From contig CAJBNH010000165.1 in assembly GCA_903955385.1 (NCBI GenBank), forward strand, positions 1-62,442: 62,442 nt of DNA, given 5' to 3'. The DNA comes from an uncultured Myxococcales bacterium (lineage in GTDB: Bacteria; Myxococcota_A; UBA9042). The notes under the pieces are model-generated. The model worked only from the letters and a program-made list of their open reading frames with translations. It did not search any database and was not told the origin of the DNA. This document shows positions 13,978 through 37,072 of this stretch, piece after piece; the stretch's first letter is position 1, and each line of letters starts with the position of its first letter. Both the position numbers and the translations under genes were made by a program.

Positions 13978-14093
13978 GACTTATCCTGGAGTTGGCGGTA
14001 TGGCGTGAGCGGCGGGGGGCCGTGCGCGCGGTCTCGATGAGGTCGCCCCCCGGCGGCCGAGACGTGCGCAGGCCGTGCTGAATAGACCAGATC

Positions 14094-14117
14094 GGGGGGG
14101 TTTGACAAACGGGGGGG
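14094..14117. repeat. G7 - GTTTGACAAAC - G7 element upstream of icd
   Basis: On the plus strand two runs of seven G (14094-14100 and 14111-14117) flank TTTGACAAAC. Together with the last G of the first run this forms the 11-bp palindrome GTTTGACAAAC. On the icd (minus) strand it reads C7-GTTTGTCAAAC-C7, about 120 bases upstream of the icd start. The decamer AAACCCCCCC is shared with a hairpin loop of the candidate RNA at 34.1 kb. Confidence 0.5.
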
Positions 14118-14303
14118 CTGCGGGGCGGACGCGGCGAGGTGCGGGCGGCGTCACCGGCGGGTGGGGGTGTCGGGCGGGTCTTCTTGGTCCCGTCGCCGAT
14201 GAGACCGCTGTTGTCGTACCCCCAGCAATGAACCGTGTCAGTCGCGAGCGCTGCGCACGAGCTGTAAGCGCCTACGCCGATGGCTTTTGCCCACGCTCCA
14301 GAC

Positions 14304-32679: not shown

Positions 32680-34044
32680 ATGACCGCCCGCCTGCTCCTT
32701 GTGGCCGTGTTGACCCTCGCCGCCTCGCTCGCTCCCCGGCCGTCTCTCGGCCAGTGCGCCACCTGAACGAGCCCTGCTCTCCCGGTGGGAGACGTCAACC
32801 TCGGAGACACTGGCCCCTCGGACGGCGCGCAAGCCTGGCGCCTCCGCGGCAGCCTCATGTACGGCTACGCCACGGCCGACGAGTACTACAAGCACGCTGA
32901 ACCGGTCCTCAACGACGACGAATACGCCATGTCGATGCATGTGGCGGTCGTGGGCGCGAGCGTCGAGAGTCCCTGGGGCTCCTCGGTCTCGCTGATGGTT
33001 CCGTATCTGCAGCTGTACTACCTGCGCCTGTTCCTGGACGAGGTCGCCAACCACGGCATGGGCGATGTCGAGCTGCGTTTCCGTCAAGACATCGGCACGT
33101 TGTGGCGCCAGCGCAAGGGTCCGCGTCTGGCCGTCACGCTGGGTGCCGTCGCTCCGACAGGTCGGTACACCGAACGGACGCTGGCGAGTCGCTTCGACTT
33201 GGTCGACTCCGACCCGTTCGCGTCGGCCGTGGGCGACTCGCCGGTGGCACGCGACCTCTCGCTCGGCCGCGGCGTCTGGTGGCTGCTGGCCGACGCTGAG
33301 GTCAGCGCGCAGGTCCTCTCGACCGTCGGCGTCTCAGCCAACGTCGTCACCCGCACCCCGATGGGCAAGGGCAGCGACGGTTTCGACTGGGGCGAGGACG
33401 TCCGCCTGGGCCTGGGCGCGCGCTGGTCCGCATGGCCAGGCCGACTGACCGCATCGGTGGCCGGCGAGCTGCAGCACCGCTGGGAAAGCACCGAGCTGGC
33501 AGAGGCCGGCCGCGCGAAGTACCCCAACGGCGGCACCTGGATCAGCGCGACCCCCAGCCTGCTGGTCACGCTGACGCAAAACCTGGCCCTGAGCGGGTCG
33601 GTCCGCTACCCCCTGAGCCGCGACGTGATGGGCAAGCAGGGCGTACAGAACCCCTCGTATTACGTTGGCTTTTCCGGAAGCTTCACCGTGGGCTCGACGA
33701 CGGGTCCGGTGCCGCTGCCGGTCGACGTGTCTGCCGTGGCTCCTGAGATCGCCGCCCTGTTGGAACCGGGCAAGGTGACGCTGGTCGACTATTGGGCGAC
33801 GTGGTGCGAGCCCTGCACGCGGCTGACGGCCCAGATCGACGTACAGCTGGCCGGACGGACCGACGTGGCCGTGCGCCGTGTAGACGCCACCGAGTGGTCG
33901 CCTGAGGACTGGCAGCGCCTGCTGCCCAACGTGCCGGGATTGCCCGTGATCGACGTGTTCGACGCTCAAGGCCAGCGACTGGTGCGGCTGACGGGAGAAG
34001 AAGCGTTCCGCTTCGCCGAGCACCTGCCCCCCAACGCAAAATAG
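32680..34044 (+). CDS. Outer-membrane beta-barrel/thioredoxin fusion with in-frame UGA (selenoprotein candidate or nonsense mutation)
   Basis: Translation from the ATG at 32680 (GGAG just upstream) gives a signal peptide ending SLGQCAT. Codon 29 is UGA (32764-32766), and the same frame then runs on for 425 codons to 34044. The region after the UGA looks like an outer-membrane barrel (LRGSLMYGYATADEYY, VSLMVPYLQLYYLRLF, TLTQNLALSGSVRYPLS). From about residue 345 there is a thioredoxin domain with WATWCEPC (Cys376, Cys379). A GTG at 32785 could restart the frame but would leave a barrel without a signal peptide. UGA would complete a C-A-T-U motif. A 6-bp hairpin with loop GGU follows after 11 bases. 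Selenocysteine, a mutation and a sequencing error all remain possible. Confidence 0.7.
32778..32792 (+). promoter_or_regulatory. SECIS-like hairpin downstream of the in-frame UGA
   Basis: UCUCCC-GGU-GGGAGA is a perfect 6-bp stem with a 3-base loop that starts with G. The stem begins 11 bases after the UGA and the loop 17 bases after it. Bacterial SECIS elements place an apical loop with G in its first two positions roughly 16-37 bases after the UGA; in E. coli fdhF an 11-base gap precedes the minimal hairpin and the loop begins GGU. The bulged U of the E. coli element is absent. Confidence 0.4.
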
Positions 34045-34286
34045 ACCCGGCGTCCAAGGTTTTCACCTTCGGGGGGAGGACGCCGGGGCGGGGGAACAAC
34101 TGGTTGAACCGTCCGGCTCGCCCGACCAAGGGGGGGTTTCGGTCGGGCGAGCCGGTTTCGGTACGGCGGTGTGCGCTTGGGGGGGACCAGCGGACACCGG
34201 GGCTTCGTCGTTCGGACCGGTCGAGGGAAGAGATACGACCGACACCAGCGGGGGGGGCTGCTGGTGGACTCCGAACCGAGCCACGT
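34038..34286 (-). ncRNA. Candidate structured small RNA with C-rich hairpin loops (6C-RNA-like style)
   Basis: Read on the minus strand, the stretch can fold into a branched structure. The stem GTTCGGA/TCCGAAC (34276-34270 with 34216-34210) closes a junction of two hairpins: 34266-34243 with loop AGCCCCCCCC, and 34240-34219 (GGTCG/CGACC). Then come a hairpin at 34198-34168 with loop GGTCCCCCCCA (one C-C mismatch in the stem) and a perfect 15-bp hairpin at 34155-34113 with loop GAAACCCCCCCTT. A terminator-like hairpin at 34087-34046 holding C6 is followed by UCUAUUUU. Four loops thus present runs of 6-8 C. Actinobacterial 6C RNA has hairpins with such C runs, but no sequence relationship is claimed. 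It lies between two convergent protein genes with no reading frame of its own. Not folded by program. Confidence 0.6.
34046..34087 (-). terminator. Hairpin with U run ending the candidate RNA
   Basis: CCCGGCGTCC (34046-34055) pairs perfectly with GGACGCCGGG (34078-34087), with a second short stem AAGG/CCTT inside. On the minus strand it is followed by UCUAUUUU (34045-34038), as expected of an intrinsic terminator. On the plus strand it lies directly after the stop of the upstream gene and may also end that transcript. Confidence 0.6.
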
Positions 34287-34292
34287 GTAGAA

Positions 34293-34323
34293 GCTATAAC
34301 ACGTTGCGTGCCAGCCGTGCCAA
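34293..34323 (-). promoter_or_regulatory. Candidate promoter of the C-rich-loop RNA
   Basis: On the minus strand TTGGCA (34323-34318), a 19-base spacer, then TGT-TATAGC (34301-34293), an extended -10. Predicted start near 34286. The spacer is longer than ideal; the TGN extension partly compensates. The segment is noticeably less GC-rich than its surroundings. Confidence 0.4.
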
Positions 34324-34386: not shown

Positions 34387-34450
34387 GAGACACCCGATCT
34401 GTCTCGCCCTGTCTCACACTGTCTCGACACTGTCTCACGTGAGACACCCG
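34387..34450. promoter_or_regulatory. Helically phased TGTCTC/GAGACA operator-like array
   Basis: TGTCTC occurs at 34400, 34410, 34420 and 34431, at intervals of 10, 10 and 11 bases. The array is bounded by two direct copies of GAGACACCCG (34387-34396 and 34441-34450). The last TGTCTC and the right-hand GAGACA form the perfect 16-bp palindrome TGTCTCACGTGAGACA (34431-34446). All sites face one side of the helix. The array lies about 100-165 bases upstream of the candidate RNA start, an activator-type position. Confidence 0.6.
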
Positions 34451-34615
34451 CCCCGGAACTCGTGTCTGGGCGGTGCAATTCTGAACGGAGCCGACGAAGA
34501 ACGTCGGCGATCCACGACCCTGCCACGGCCGAGGGTGTGGCTCAGGGCTCGGAGCTCCTGCAGGCACGAAGACGGTGTCGGATGATGCAAGGGGGAAGCT
34601 TGGGGGGACGCGCGC
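34451..34615. other. Remainder of the convergent intergenic region
   Basis: Nothing recognised as coding. It ends with two more G runs on the plus strand (GGGGG at 34591 and GGGGGG at 34602), just past the stop of the IgGFc-like gene. Confidence 0.4.
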
Positions 34616-37030
34616 CTACTTCAGCGCAGCGCCGCCCGGGTAGCCGTAGCTGACGAAGTCCGCATAGCCATAGACCAGCAGCCCGACGGGAGCCTCTGCG
34701 GTGAGCTTGTTGACGCCCTGCTGCACGGCAATGCGCGCCCCACTCCAACCCGCTGCAATCGCCTTGAAGTCGCCCGCGGCAATCGGCGCGCCGTTGAGCA
34801 GCATGGGCGCGCCGGTCGGGGCAACGATGTTCACGTAGTTCGACTTGTACTTGTCGGGCACGAGGAAGATGTACTCGTTCATGTACTGGTCGGTGGCCAG
34901 GTTCATGATCATCGCGGGATCGCCCGTCTTGGCATCGTTAGCTTCCTGGATGTTGGGGCAGTCCGCGTTCTTGACGCAGGACCACGGCACGCCGGTCGTC
35001 ATGAACGCCTTGCACACCTTCTGACCGCCGAACTTGCCGTCGCACGTGTCGTTGTTGGGATTCGGCGCGTTGGCCGACGCCATGTACTGCGCGACCTGGA
35101 TGGGCTTGTTGGACGTCATCACGAAGTCCTGAGTGGACTCGAACTCGAACCACTGGCCCTTGGACAGCTGCGGGATGTCGACCTGCTTGGGGTCCGTGTC
35201 GATCAGCGTGCCGTCTTCCGCGGCCAGGACGCGATAGGCGTCCTTCTCAGCGCCGCGCGGCTGCAGCTTGGTGGCCACGTACATGGTGCCCCACGAGGAG
35301 ATCGGGAACAGTTGCTCCTCCAAGTGGTCAGCGCAGCAGGTCTTGGGGCAGTCGTCGTTGGTCTGGCACGCCCAACCCTGATACTCGCACACGCCGTTGA
35401 TGCAGTGGTCGGTGTTGGGCGAGTTCGAGGCCTCAGAACCGCCAAATACGGCGATCGGCTTGTCCGCCTGAATCCACGTGCCGGTCGGGTCGGCGCCGTT
35501 GATGTTCGTCTCGACGTTGAGGACCTGGCCCTGAGTCAACGTGAACTGCTGCGTCATGCCGGGCTTGAGCGCCGGGACGTCGCCGCCGCCAGCTGCCGTC
35601 ACGGCCGAGCTCAACACCGTGACGATGGTCTCGCCAATCGAGGTGCCCACGACCGTGAAATACGACCGCAGCTCTGCGTGGGTCTGCTCGCGCGTCATCA
35701 CCCAGTACTCGTTGCCGATGCCATTGGAGGGCAGCAGCAGCGAGGCGTCGTTCGAGAACACGTCATAGTTCTGCAGCGGATTGAACTGGTACGCGACGAT
35801 CGGCTTGTCGGACTGGATGCGGTAGACGCGCTTGTTGATGCTCGAGCCGTCCTGGTTGCCCGTCTTGGTCGCGTCCGTCTTCCACACAGGATCCGGGAGG
35901 TTGAGGATCTTCAGGCCGCCGGCAGGCACCTGATAGCTGGCCGTCATGCCGTTGCCCGCAGTGACCGTGACAAGTGCCGGCGCCGTCGTCGTGTTCGAGA
36001 TGATGACCGAGAACTGCGCGTTCTGGGCGTCGCAGAAACCGGTGGCGCTGGAGCAAGGCACGTAGGCGTTGTCGAGGTCGACCGCCCAGTAGTCGCAGCC
36101 GACGTTGGTGTTCGACTTGATGTCCGAGGCGCACGGGTCCAGACACAGACCACCCAAGCATGTCCAGCCGTTTGCCGAACAGTTCTGCGAGACTTGGTAC
36201 TGCGAGCCGTCCGGTGCGCACTCCATCGCGTTGTCGCCCATGCAGATCTTCGAGCCGGGGACGCAGACCTGGCACTTGCCGGCGACGCACTCCTCACCCT
36301 CGTCGCACATGTCGACGACCATGGTTCCCGAGCCGGCTTCGTTGCACTTCAGCAGCTTGGTGCTCTTGGCGCTGGCACCTTCCGGCTTGGCGCAGAAGAA
36401 CTTGTTGGGCTGGCAAGCGAGGCACTTGGTGCCCGAGCACACCGGCTTGTCGTCGGGGCAGCTCTCGACCGTGAACGACTTGCCGTCGGAGTTGCAGGTC
36501 TCGAGGAAGTCGCCCTTGCAGGCCACCGCGCCCGGCTTGCAGGTGACGGGTACACACTTGTAATTCTGGCAGTTGTTGGTGGTGGGGCAGTTCAGGCCGA
36601 CCAAGCACTCGACGCATTTCTGGATGGCGACGGCGCAGAACGGTGTCTTGGTGTCGGGAATGTTCGCGCAGACCTTGTTGGTGGTGCAGACGGGTCCGGT
36701 GTCGATGTCTACCTTGGTGTCGGTCGCGCTGGTGTCGGTGCCCGGGTTGGTCGTGTCCTCGACCGGGGTGTCCTCCGTGCCATCCGGGATCGCTGCATCC
36801 AGGTCCACATCCTCGCCGGTCGTGTCCATGTCGTCGGCGTCCCCACCCGTATCGACATCCACAACGTCCGGCTTGATGTCCGGAAGGTCCTTGTTCTTGT
36901 CGATGCTGATGTCGGCGAAGGGGTCCGTCGCGACGGGTGTCGTGGTGTTGCTGCAGCCGATGGCGGCGAACGCCAAGGCGAGGACCACCAAGTGCAAGGC
37001 GCGGGTTCCGGAAGTGGCAAACACAGACAT
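34616..37030 (-). CDS. Lipoprotein with IgGFc-binding-protein-like N-terminal-type domain
   Basis: The 804-residue product has a signal peptide and lipobox (FAAIGC, Cys26) and a long acidic Asp/Thr spacer to about residue 115. A Cys-rich stalk follows (CVECLVGLNCPTTNNC, CVPGSKICMGDNAMEC). From about residue 320 to the end is the domain found at the N-terminus of animal IgGFc-binding protein and in many bacterial surface proteins: GCDYWAVDLDN, YQFNPLQNYD, SNDASLLLPSNGIGNEYWV, IQADKPIAVFGGSEASN, CCADHLEEQLFP, WGTMYVATKL and FVMTSNKPIQVAQYMAS. A ligand-binding surface role is likely, the ligand unknown. The start is fixed by the signal peptide; 14 upstream residues are excluded. Confidence 0.87.
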   Translation of the reverse strand: MSVFATSGTRALHLVVLALAFAAIGCSNTTTPVATDPFADISIDKNKDLPDIKPDVVDVDTGGDADDMDTTGEDVDLDAAIPDGTEDTPVEDTTNPGTDTSATDTKVDIDTGPVCTTNKVCANIPDTKTPFCAVAIQKCVECLVGLNCPTTNNCQNYKCVPVTCKPGAVACKGDFLETCNSDGKSFTVESCPDDKPVCSGTKCLACQPNKFFCAKPEGASAKSTKLLKCNEAGSGTMVVDMCDEGEECVAGKCQVCVPGSKICMGDNAMECAPDGSQYQVSQNCSANGWTCLGGLCLDPCASDIKSNTNVGCDYWAVDLDNAYVPCSSATGFCDAQNAQFSVIISNTTTAPALVTVTAGNGMTASYQVPAGGLKILNLPDPVWKTDATKTGNQDGSSINKRVYRIQSDKPIVAYQFNPLQNYDVFSNDASLLLPSNGIGNEYWVMTREQTHAELRSYFTVVGTSIGETIVTVLSSAVTAAGGGDVPALKPGMTQQFTLTQGQVLNVETNINGADPTGTWIQADKPIAVFGGSEASNSPNTDHCINGVCEYQGWACQTNDDCPKTCCADHLEEQLFPISSWGTMYVATKLQPRGAEKDAYRVLAAEDGTLIDTDPKQVDIPQLSKGQWFEFESTQDFVMTSNKPIQVAQYMASANAPNPNNDTCDGKFGGQKVCKAFMTTGVPWSCVKNADCPNIQEANDAKTGDPAMIMNLATDQYMNEYIFLVPDKYKSNYVNIVAPTGAPMLLNGAPIAAGDFKAIAAGWSGARIAVQQGVNKLTAEAPVGLLVYGYADFVSYGYPGGAALK

Positions 37031-37072
37031 GTCGAAGCCTCGGAGCCGCTCACGGATTACGGCAGGTCTCAC

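Follow-up and report, generated by a model that had tools for sequence, protein, structure and literature searches.

The locus and its RNA

The window, by which we mean the whole stretch of 62,442 nucleotides from an uncultured Myxococcales bacterium analysed here, contains two genes that converge on a gap. The gene on the plus strand (32785-34044) encodes a protein with a C-terminal thioredoxin domain (Pfam PF00085), and the one on the minus strand (34616-37072), upstream of the RNA described below, an IgGFc_binding domain protein (Pfam PF17517). In the gap, between their ends at 34044 and 34616, a long folded stretch lies together with a promoter-like element and a terminator. We place there a small RNA (sRNA) gene of about 250 nt on the minus strand (34038-34288), which is flanked by a promoter and operator on one side and a terminator on the other and carries no coding signal; its U-rich tail overlaps the 3' end of the convergent thioredoxin-domain gene. 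A small perfect hairpin, GCCGACG-TTCTT-CGTCGGC (34490-34508), lies about 110 nt past the IgGFc_binding gene and is possibly the terminator of that gene.

The structural elements proposed for this RNA in the preliminary description were all present on the minus strand when their coordinates were checked one by one. A three-way junction domain (34201-34282), closed by the 7-bp stem GTTCGGA/TCCGAAC (34276-34270/34216-34210), holds hairpins 1 and 2. Hairpin 1 (34243-34266) has a 7-bp stem and the loop AGCCCCCCCC, whose C8 run (34257-34250) is unpaired with a probability of 0.94; hairpin 2 (34217-34242) also has a 7-bp stem and bears the pyrimidine loop UAUCUCUUCCCU (CTCTTCCCTC, unpaired probability 0.9). 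They are followed by hairpin 3 (34167-34199), with a C7 run in and beside its loop (34185-34179, 0.72), and by hairpin 4 (34113-34155), a perfect 15-bp stem (arms 34155-34141 and 34127-34113; 17 bp with G-U/A-U pairs) with a C7 run in the loop (34136-34130, 1.0). A further C5 run lies at 34094-34090 (0.94). The terminator hairpin (34046-34087) has a 10-bp stem, CCCGGCGTCC/GGACGCCGGG at 34087-34078/34055-34046, and ends in the U-rich tail TCTATTTT (34038-34045). Four C6-C8 runs had been assigned to hairpin loops: the runs exist and are mostly unpaired, but the C6 of the terminator (34076-34071, 0.99) sits in an internal bulge and not in an apical loop.

Comparison with shuffled sequence, suggested in the preliminary description, gave a clear result. 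The minus strand of 34288-34038 folds at -120.8 kcal/mol, an energy that none of 500 dinucleotide shuffles reached, and its z-score of -7.7 against -3.5 for the plus strand denotes a strand asymmetry. The z-score is needed here, as raw fold energy alone is uninformative, coding windows of G+C-rich DNA being equally stable. Over 207 further windows taken from the minus strand of the 62 kb, z averaged 0.2 (sd 1.3), and the best value not overlapping the locus was -3.3. As to the C-runs, four C6 runs arose in 19 of 500 shuffles and three hairpin loops with C5 or longer in 2 of 500. Four runs of C6 or more within 250 nt occur at two places in the 1.58 Mb that were read of this genome, of which the locus is one, and it was the only structured cluster among nine that were folded. 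The other clusters were considered as similar RNAs and rejected, being unstructured (z -1.0 to +1.6); one of the clusters without structure lies in the window itself (14014-14163, minus strand; three C6+ runs in about 100 nt, z +1.6). Fold, terminator and mostly unpaired C-runs confirm the earlier claim of an independent structured small RNA in the convergent gap, and we conclude that a stand-alone sRNA gene on the minus strand is very likely.

Sequence and synteny searches

No Rfam family matched the 62-kb window at the gathering cut-offs, and no match was named Pxr. At a lax threshold, the best weak match was Scr3202 (RF02833; 28.6 bits, cut-off 52, E 0.039), followed by 6C RNA (RF01066; 23.9 and 19.8 bits, cut-off 47) and sX13 (RF02232; 21.6 bits, cut-off 50). 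Membership in any of these three families was rejected, all covariance-model scores lying below the cut-off although the loop chemistry is alike; the RNA had previously been held to be unrelated to the 6C family, which these scores bear out. A DNA search with the RNA through 53 relatives and 379 genomes of the phylum returned two chance matches only, both inside coding sequence, and a triple C6-run pattern brought up nothing RNA-like in genomes of the same family. Covariance models built on the single sequence (R1, R2) gave weak matches only, and the six that were folded were discarded as unconvincing and mostly in open frames. The RNA is present in a single copy and contains no repeats.

The flanking genes were followed into the same family. 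Oriented loci of the thioredoxin-gene orthologues showed no such RNA alongside, with a murB-like gene mostly directly next to them, and no C-run cluster was seen downstream of 13 IgGFc_binding orthologues. Judged by sequence and synteny, the locus seems specific to its lineage. A MAG contig titled Klebsiella pneumoniae (L042) carries a gene distantly related to the thioredoxin-domain gene, which otherwise occurred in myxobacterial MAGs; probably either this title is an error or the bin is a mixture.

An operator array and a sigma-54-like promoter

Upstream of the RNA, the minus strand carries an array of six half-sites (34387-34446), presumably an operator or enhancer, in the order TGTCTC (34446-34441), GAGACA (34436-34431, 34425-34420, 34415-34410 and 34405-34400) and TGTCTC (34392-34387). 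The four direct GAGACA copies are spaced by 11, 10 and 10 bp, and a perfect dyad, TGTCTCACGTGAGACA, lies inside the array (34431-34446). Nowhere else in the 1.58 Mb read do three or more half-sites cluster inside 70 bp, and no direct GAGACA pair at the array spacing was found elsewhere in the whole genome. Because the neighbouring genes converge on the gap, the array is unlikely to serve anything but the RNA.

The last direct GAGACA is followed, 85 bp further, by a sigma-54-like promoter, CTGGCACGCAACGTGTT (34298-34314, minus strand), of the form CTGGCACG-N4-GTGTT. Its -24 element is perfect, and its -12 element has GT instead of GC. The GC of the -12 element is near-invariant in sigma-54 promoters, so this promoter may be weak. 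From sigma-54 promoter geometry, transcription is predicted to start at 34286-34288, about 24 nt after the GG of the -24 element. The preliminary description had overlooked both the six half-sites and this promoter in the same gap, and had proposed TGT-TATAGC as the promoter; that element failed a sigma-70 scan and turned out to be the 3' edge of the sigma-54-like element (34314-34298). The promoter is thus probably not of the sigma-70 type, and from the sequence, control of the sRNA by sigma-54 through the GAGACA array appears likely.

The genome of the window contains rpoN. It also contains a gene for an NtrC-type response regulator with a receiver, a sigma-54 activation domain and a Fis-type HTH (L180:129-1786; G000:C130, minus strand), which is preceded by the sigma-54 promoter TTGGCACGCATCGTGCT with two TGTCTC half-sites upstream. 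Apart from that of the sRNA, no further sigma-54-like promoter in the part of the genome that was read had two half-sites upstream. The simplest reading would be that an autoregulated NtrC-type activator also drives the sRNA. Hfq was not found in this genome, which is 95.6% complete, and this fits an action of a C-loop sRNA without Hfq, as for sX13.

The same regulatory unit in relatives

With the operator used as a probe, a search for GAGACA pairs in relatives listed several tandem arrays, and eleven places were read. In four species of one genus in the same family (L229, L230, L231 and L236), a phased array is followed by a sigma-54 promoter, C/T-TGGCACG-N4-GTGCA. The array spacing is 10/11/11/10 in L229, L230 and L231 and 10/10/11/10 in L236, and the promoter lies 85 or 86 bp after the last GAGACA in all four. 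The window promoter shares 15 of 17 bases with that of L229 (CTGGCACGCAACGTGCA).

Downstream of the four promoters lies an RNA, read over about 155-180 nt, with three to five CCCC runs that are nearly all unpaired. Its loops are GUGCCCCAC, CCCCGAU and UGCCCCACAC, with a terminal hairpin carrying CCC or CCCC, and the C-runs in these loops have unpaired probabilities of 0.83-1.0. Sense-strand z-scores were -2.9 (an RNA cut off by the contig end), -6.1, -7.6 and -7.7. The alignment contains five compensatory pairs, against 1.3 +/- 0.9 in shuffles (0 of 500 reached five) and 0-1 in slid structures, which is good rather than overwhelming evidence for covariation, coming from four sequences of one genus. 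The SL1, SL2 and SL3 loops, which are the main CCCC loops, are invariant across the four relatives while the stems vary. The earlier suggestion that the C-runs are functional and the stems free to differ was thereby strengthened.

The RNA of the window could not be aligned with these RNAs: against a model of the four relatives (R3) and with filters off, the minus strand scored at best 8.3 bits (E 0.067), no more than the 9.2 bits of the plus strand. A case for orthology therefore rests on the regulatory region and the architecture. What they have in common is the layout: a structured body some 15 nt past the promoter, loops with C-runs and a hairpin at the end. Our claim, read from the sequence, is thus that regulatory unit and design are common to the window RNA and the relatives' RNAs, which falls short of proven orthology. 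The preliminary description had named homologous gaps without the element in close relatives as grounds for refutation; the loci of the flanking genes do lack the RNA, yet the regulatory unit exists elsewhere in the relatives. An sRNA with an unalignable body can in this way be traced between genera through the geometry of operator and promoter. An E-value-based Rfam scan over the loci of five relatives gave no informative match.

In a third genus, two genomes (L233 and L234) combine the array with a sigma-54 promoter and a structured RNA that ends in a terminator but shows no clear C-loops; this counts against the C-loop reading and indicates that the operator also drives other RNAs. In both (L233:480-870, plus strand; L234, minus strand, reverse-complement 600-1000), the terminal hairpin carries a G6 run. 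In L235 (G014:C143, minus strand), a GAGACA pair and the sigma-54 promoter TGGCACGACCCTTGCA stand directly before a protein-coding gene, HRDC-like by eye, and the GAGACA operator may control a wider regulon that includes protein genes.

G-run ribosome sites as possible targets

The preliminary description had proposed an anti-Shine-Dalgarno role for the C-runs. With start codons chosen without a Shine-Dalgarno score, runs of G5 or more at -20 to -11 were found in 3.4% of the 968 called genes, six-fold the upstream background, and runs of G6 or more were 10-fold enriched at the same distance from start codons in the window's genome. This enrichment at ribosome-site distance indicates that suitable candidate sites exist. 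The proposal gains from these figures and not from a duplex-energy scan, in which start regions were no stronger than internal coding controls and no target stood out. G6 ribosome sites were more frequent here than in two relatives (13 of 968 against 1 of 530, p 0.025), a difference confounded by the higher G-run background here. On balance, and by analogy, we lean towards the C-loops being pairing sites against G-run ribosome sites.

An excess of export proteins among the G-run genes was considered as a target signal and dropped as unspecific, GGAGG genes showing such an excess as well. Two divergent neighbours encoding apparently exported proteins have G-run ribosome sites of G7 and G6 (L181:8773, minus strand, and L181:8908, plus strand). 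In a receiver-domain-like gene (L103:2558, plus strand), the ribosome site ACGCTTGGGGGG is perfectly complementary over 11 nt to CCCCCCAAGCG, which spans the loop and the 3' arm in hairpin 3, a match possibly due to chance given the number of start regions scanned.

Interpretation and alternative explanations

In the explanation that we favour, an activator of the NtrC type would bind to the phased GAGACA array and open the sigma-54 promoter 85 bp downstream, and a transcript of about 250 nt would run from there to the terminator at 34087-34038. The RNA would form a rigid scaffold displaying several single-stranded C-runs; these would base-pair Hfq-independently with G-runs in or close to the ribosome-binding sites of several mRNAs and so block their translation. 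Transcription, the identity of the activator, mRNA pairing and its outcome are the parts that we infer. As a whole, this account of an Hfq-independent, sigma-54-controlled C-loop sRNA seems to us fairly probable.

A real RNA, regulated as described, might instead act mainly by binding protein or as an RNA sponge, its C-runs being unpaired spacers. A highly structured scaffold with identical loop motifs repeated, as in multi-site titration RNAs, and the duplex scan in which no single target stands out would agree with such a role. We nevertheless think it unlikely: the main CCCC loops stay invariant in four species while their stems vary, pairing of C-loops with G-runs has been shown for similar RNAs (PMC3771888, PMC10470900), and CsrA-type sponges need GGA loops, whereas the unpaired loops here are C-rich.

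Alternatively, the sRNA could be transcribed from a sigma-70-type promoter with TATAGC, the sigma-54-like element being a decayed remnant. In its favour, TATAGC is suitably placed relative to the RNA 5' end, and the -12 element reads GT where GC is expected. The scan, however, found no sigma-70 promoter, and both the exact 85-bp spacing from the array and 15 of 17 promoter bases are kept as in relatives, so that we consider this improbable as well.

It is also conceivable that the gap holds no functional RNA, being either a stretch between convergent genes that contains palindromes or tandem terminators, or the remains of a mobile element. An RNA body that has no homologue and orthologues of both flanking genes that lack the element would agree with this. 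We judge it very unlikely in view of the dedicated operator and promoter in a convergent gap, the strand-asymmetric fold stability of a single-copy element without repeats, and the occurrence of the same regulatory unit, with stems that covary, in relatives. The 73-aa GTG open reading frame at 34284-34063 keeps a frame open over most of the RNA, but a small proline-rich protein as the product is scarcely credible, since G+C does not differ between the three codon positions (0.69 each), whereas coding frames here are strongly skewed, and the open frames have no Pfam or PHROG match.

Comparison with known C-loop RNAs

Pairing of C-loop sRNAs with G-rich ribosome sites is already known from Actinobacteria, Xanthomonas and some pathogens. 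In Xanthomonas, sX13 acts through its C-rich loops, independently of Hfq, to repress mRNAs that have G-rich motifs close to the start (PMC3771888). This trans-acting RNA of three stems resembles the window RNA in its stable stems with C-rich loops, but it is 115 nt long and gammaproteobacterial, and the window scores 21.6 against its cut-off of 50. The C-rich loops of actinobacterial 6C/B11 act on a G6 tract in a 5' UTR (PMC10470900). The 6C/B11 RNA (RF01066) likewise has C6 runs in hairpin loops that pair with mRNA G tracts; unlike the window RNA, it consists of two hairpins in about 75 nt, and the window RNA scores below its cut-off. The literature consulted mentions no sigma-54 enhancer array for it. 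Scr3202 of Streptomyces also has two C-loop hairpins, and its match to the window (28.6 against a cut-off of 52) is driven by hairpin and C-loop composition.

A further likeness is to Pxr of Myxococcus xanthus and Cystobacterineae. According to the available passages of PMC5684412 and PMC5568312, Pxr has a predicted sigma-54 promoter preceded by an enhancer region, an NtrC-type regulator (pxrR/nla19) and several stable stem-loops, a single C-to-A change in the C-run of SL1 abolishes its function, and M. xanthus has no hfq homologue. It gates fruiting-body development, and its direct targets are described as uncharacterised in the portion of PMC11928866 at hand. The window RNA is likened to Pxr by design, the Pxr sequence being known here from printed oligonucleotides only (PMC5568312); the segment implied by the published probe and primer, AGGCUGAAGGUGGUUCCCCCCACCCCUUCAGC, folds into a hairpin with a C-run in the loop. 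Both RNAs have a predicted sigma-54 promoter with upstream enhancer sites, with a -12 element that is degenerate in the window and good in the relatives, and the arrangement of the L180 regulator and the sRNA is reminiscent of pxrR and Pxr (PMC5684412, PMC5568312). They differ in that Pxr measures about 108 nt and has three stem-loops, a C-run being known in the loop of one, whereas the window RNA is about 250 nt long with C-runs in at least three hairpins and in the terminator bulge. Pxr lies between pxrR/nla19 and an NADH dehydrogenase gene, the window RNA between the thioredoxin-domain and IgGFc_binding genes. The passages on Pxr in the literature available to us make no mention of C-rich pairing to ribosome sites; by analogy, we infer that Pxr and the C-loop RNAs described here may work alike, and the SL1 C-run of Pxr may then be a seed against G-runs at ribosome sites.

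More tentatively, and as something we would not yet call likely, there could be a hitherto undescribed, fast-evolving family of sigma-54/NtrC-controlled multi-C-loop sRNAs in this Myxococcota lineage, in which operator, promoter spacing and C-run loops were kept while nearly all other RNA sequence turned over. Pxr would be a mechanistic cousin of this family, the C-run of its SL1 pairing with G-rich ribosome-binding sites. If the favoured explanation is true, the window RNA would be a Myxococcota version of C-loop regulation, in bacteria that lack Hfq and wired to sigma-54 and an NtrC-type regulator. The kind of RNA is known; new are its lineage, its wiring and how many C-runs it has.
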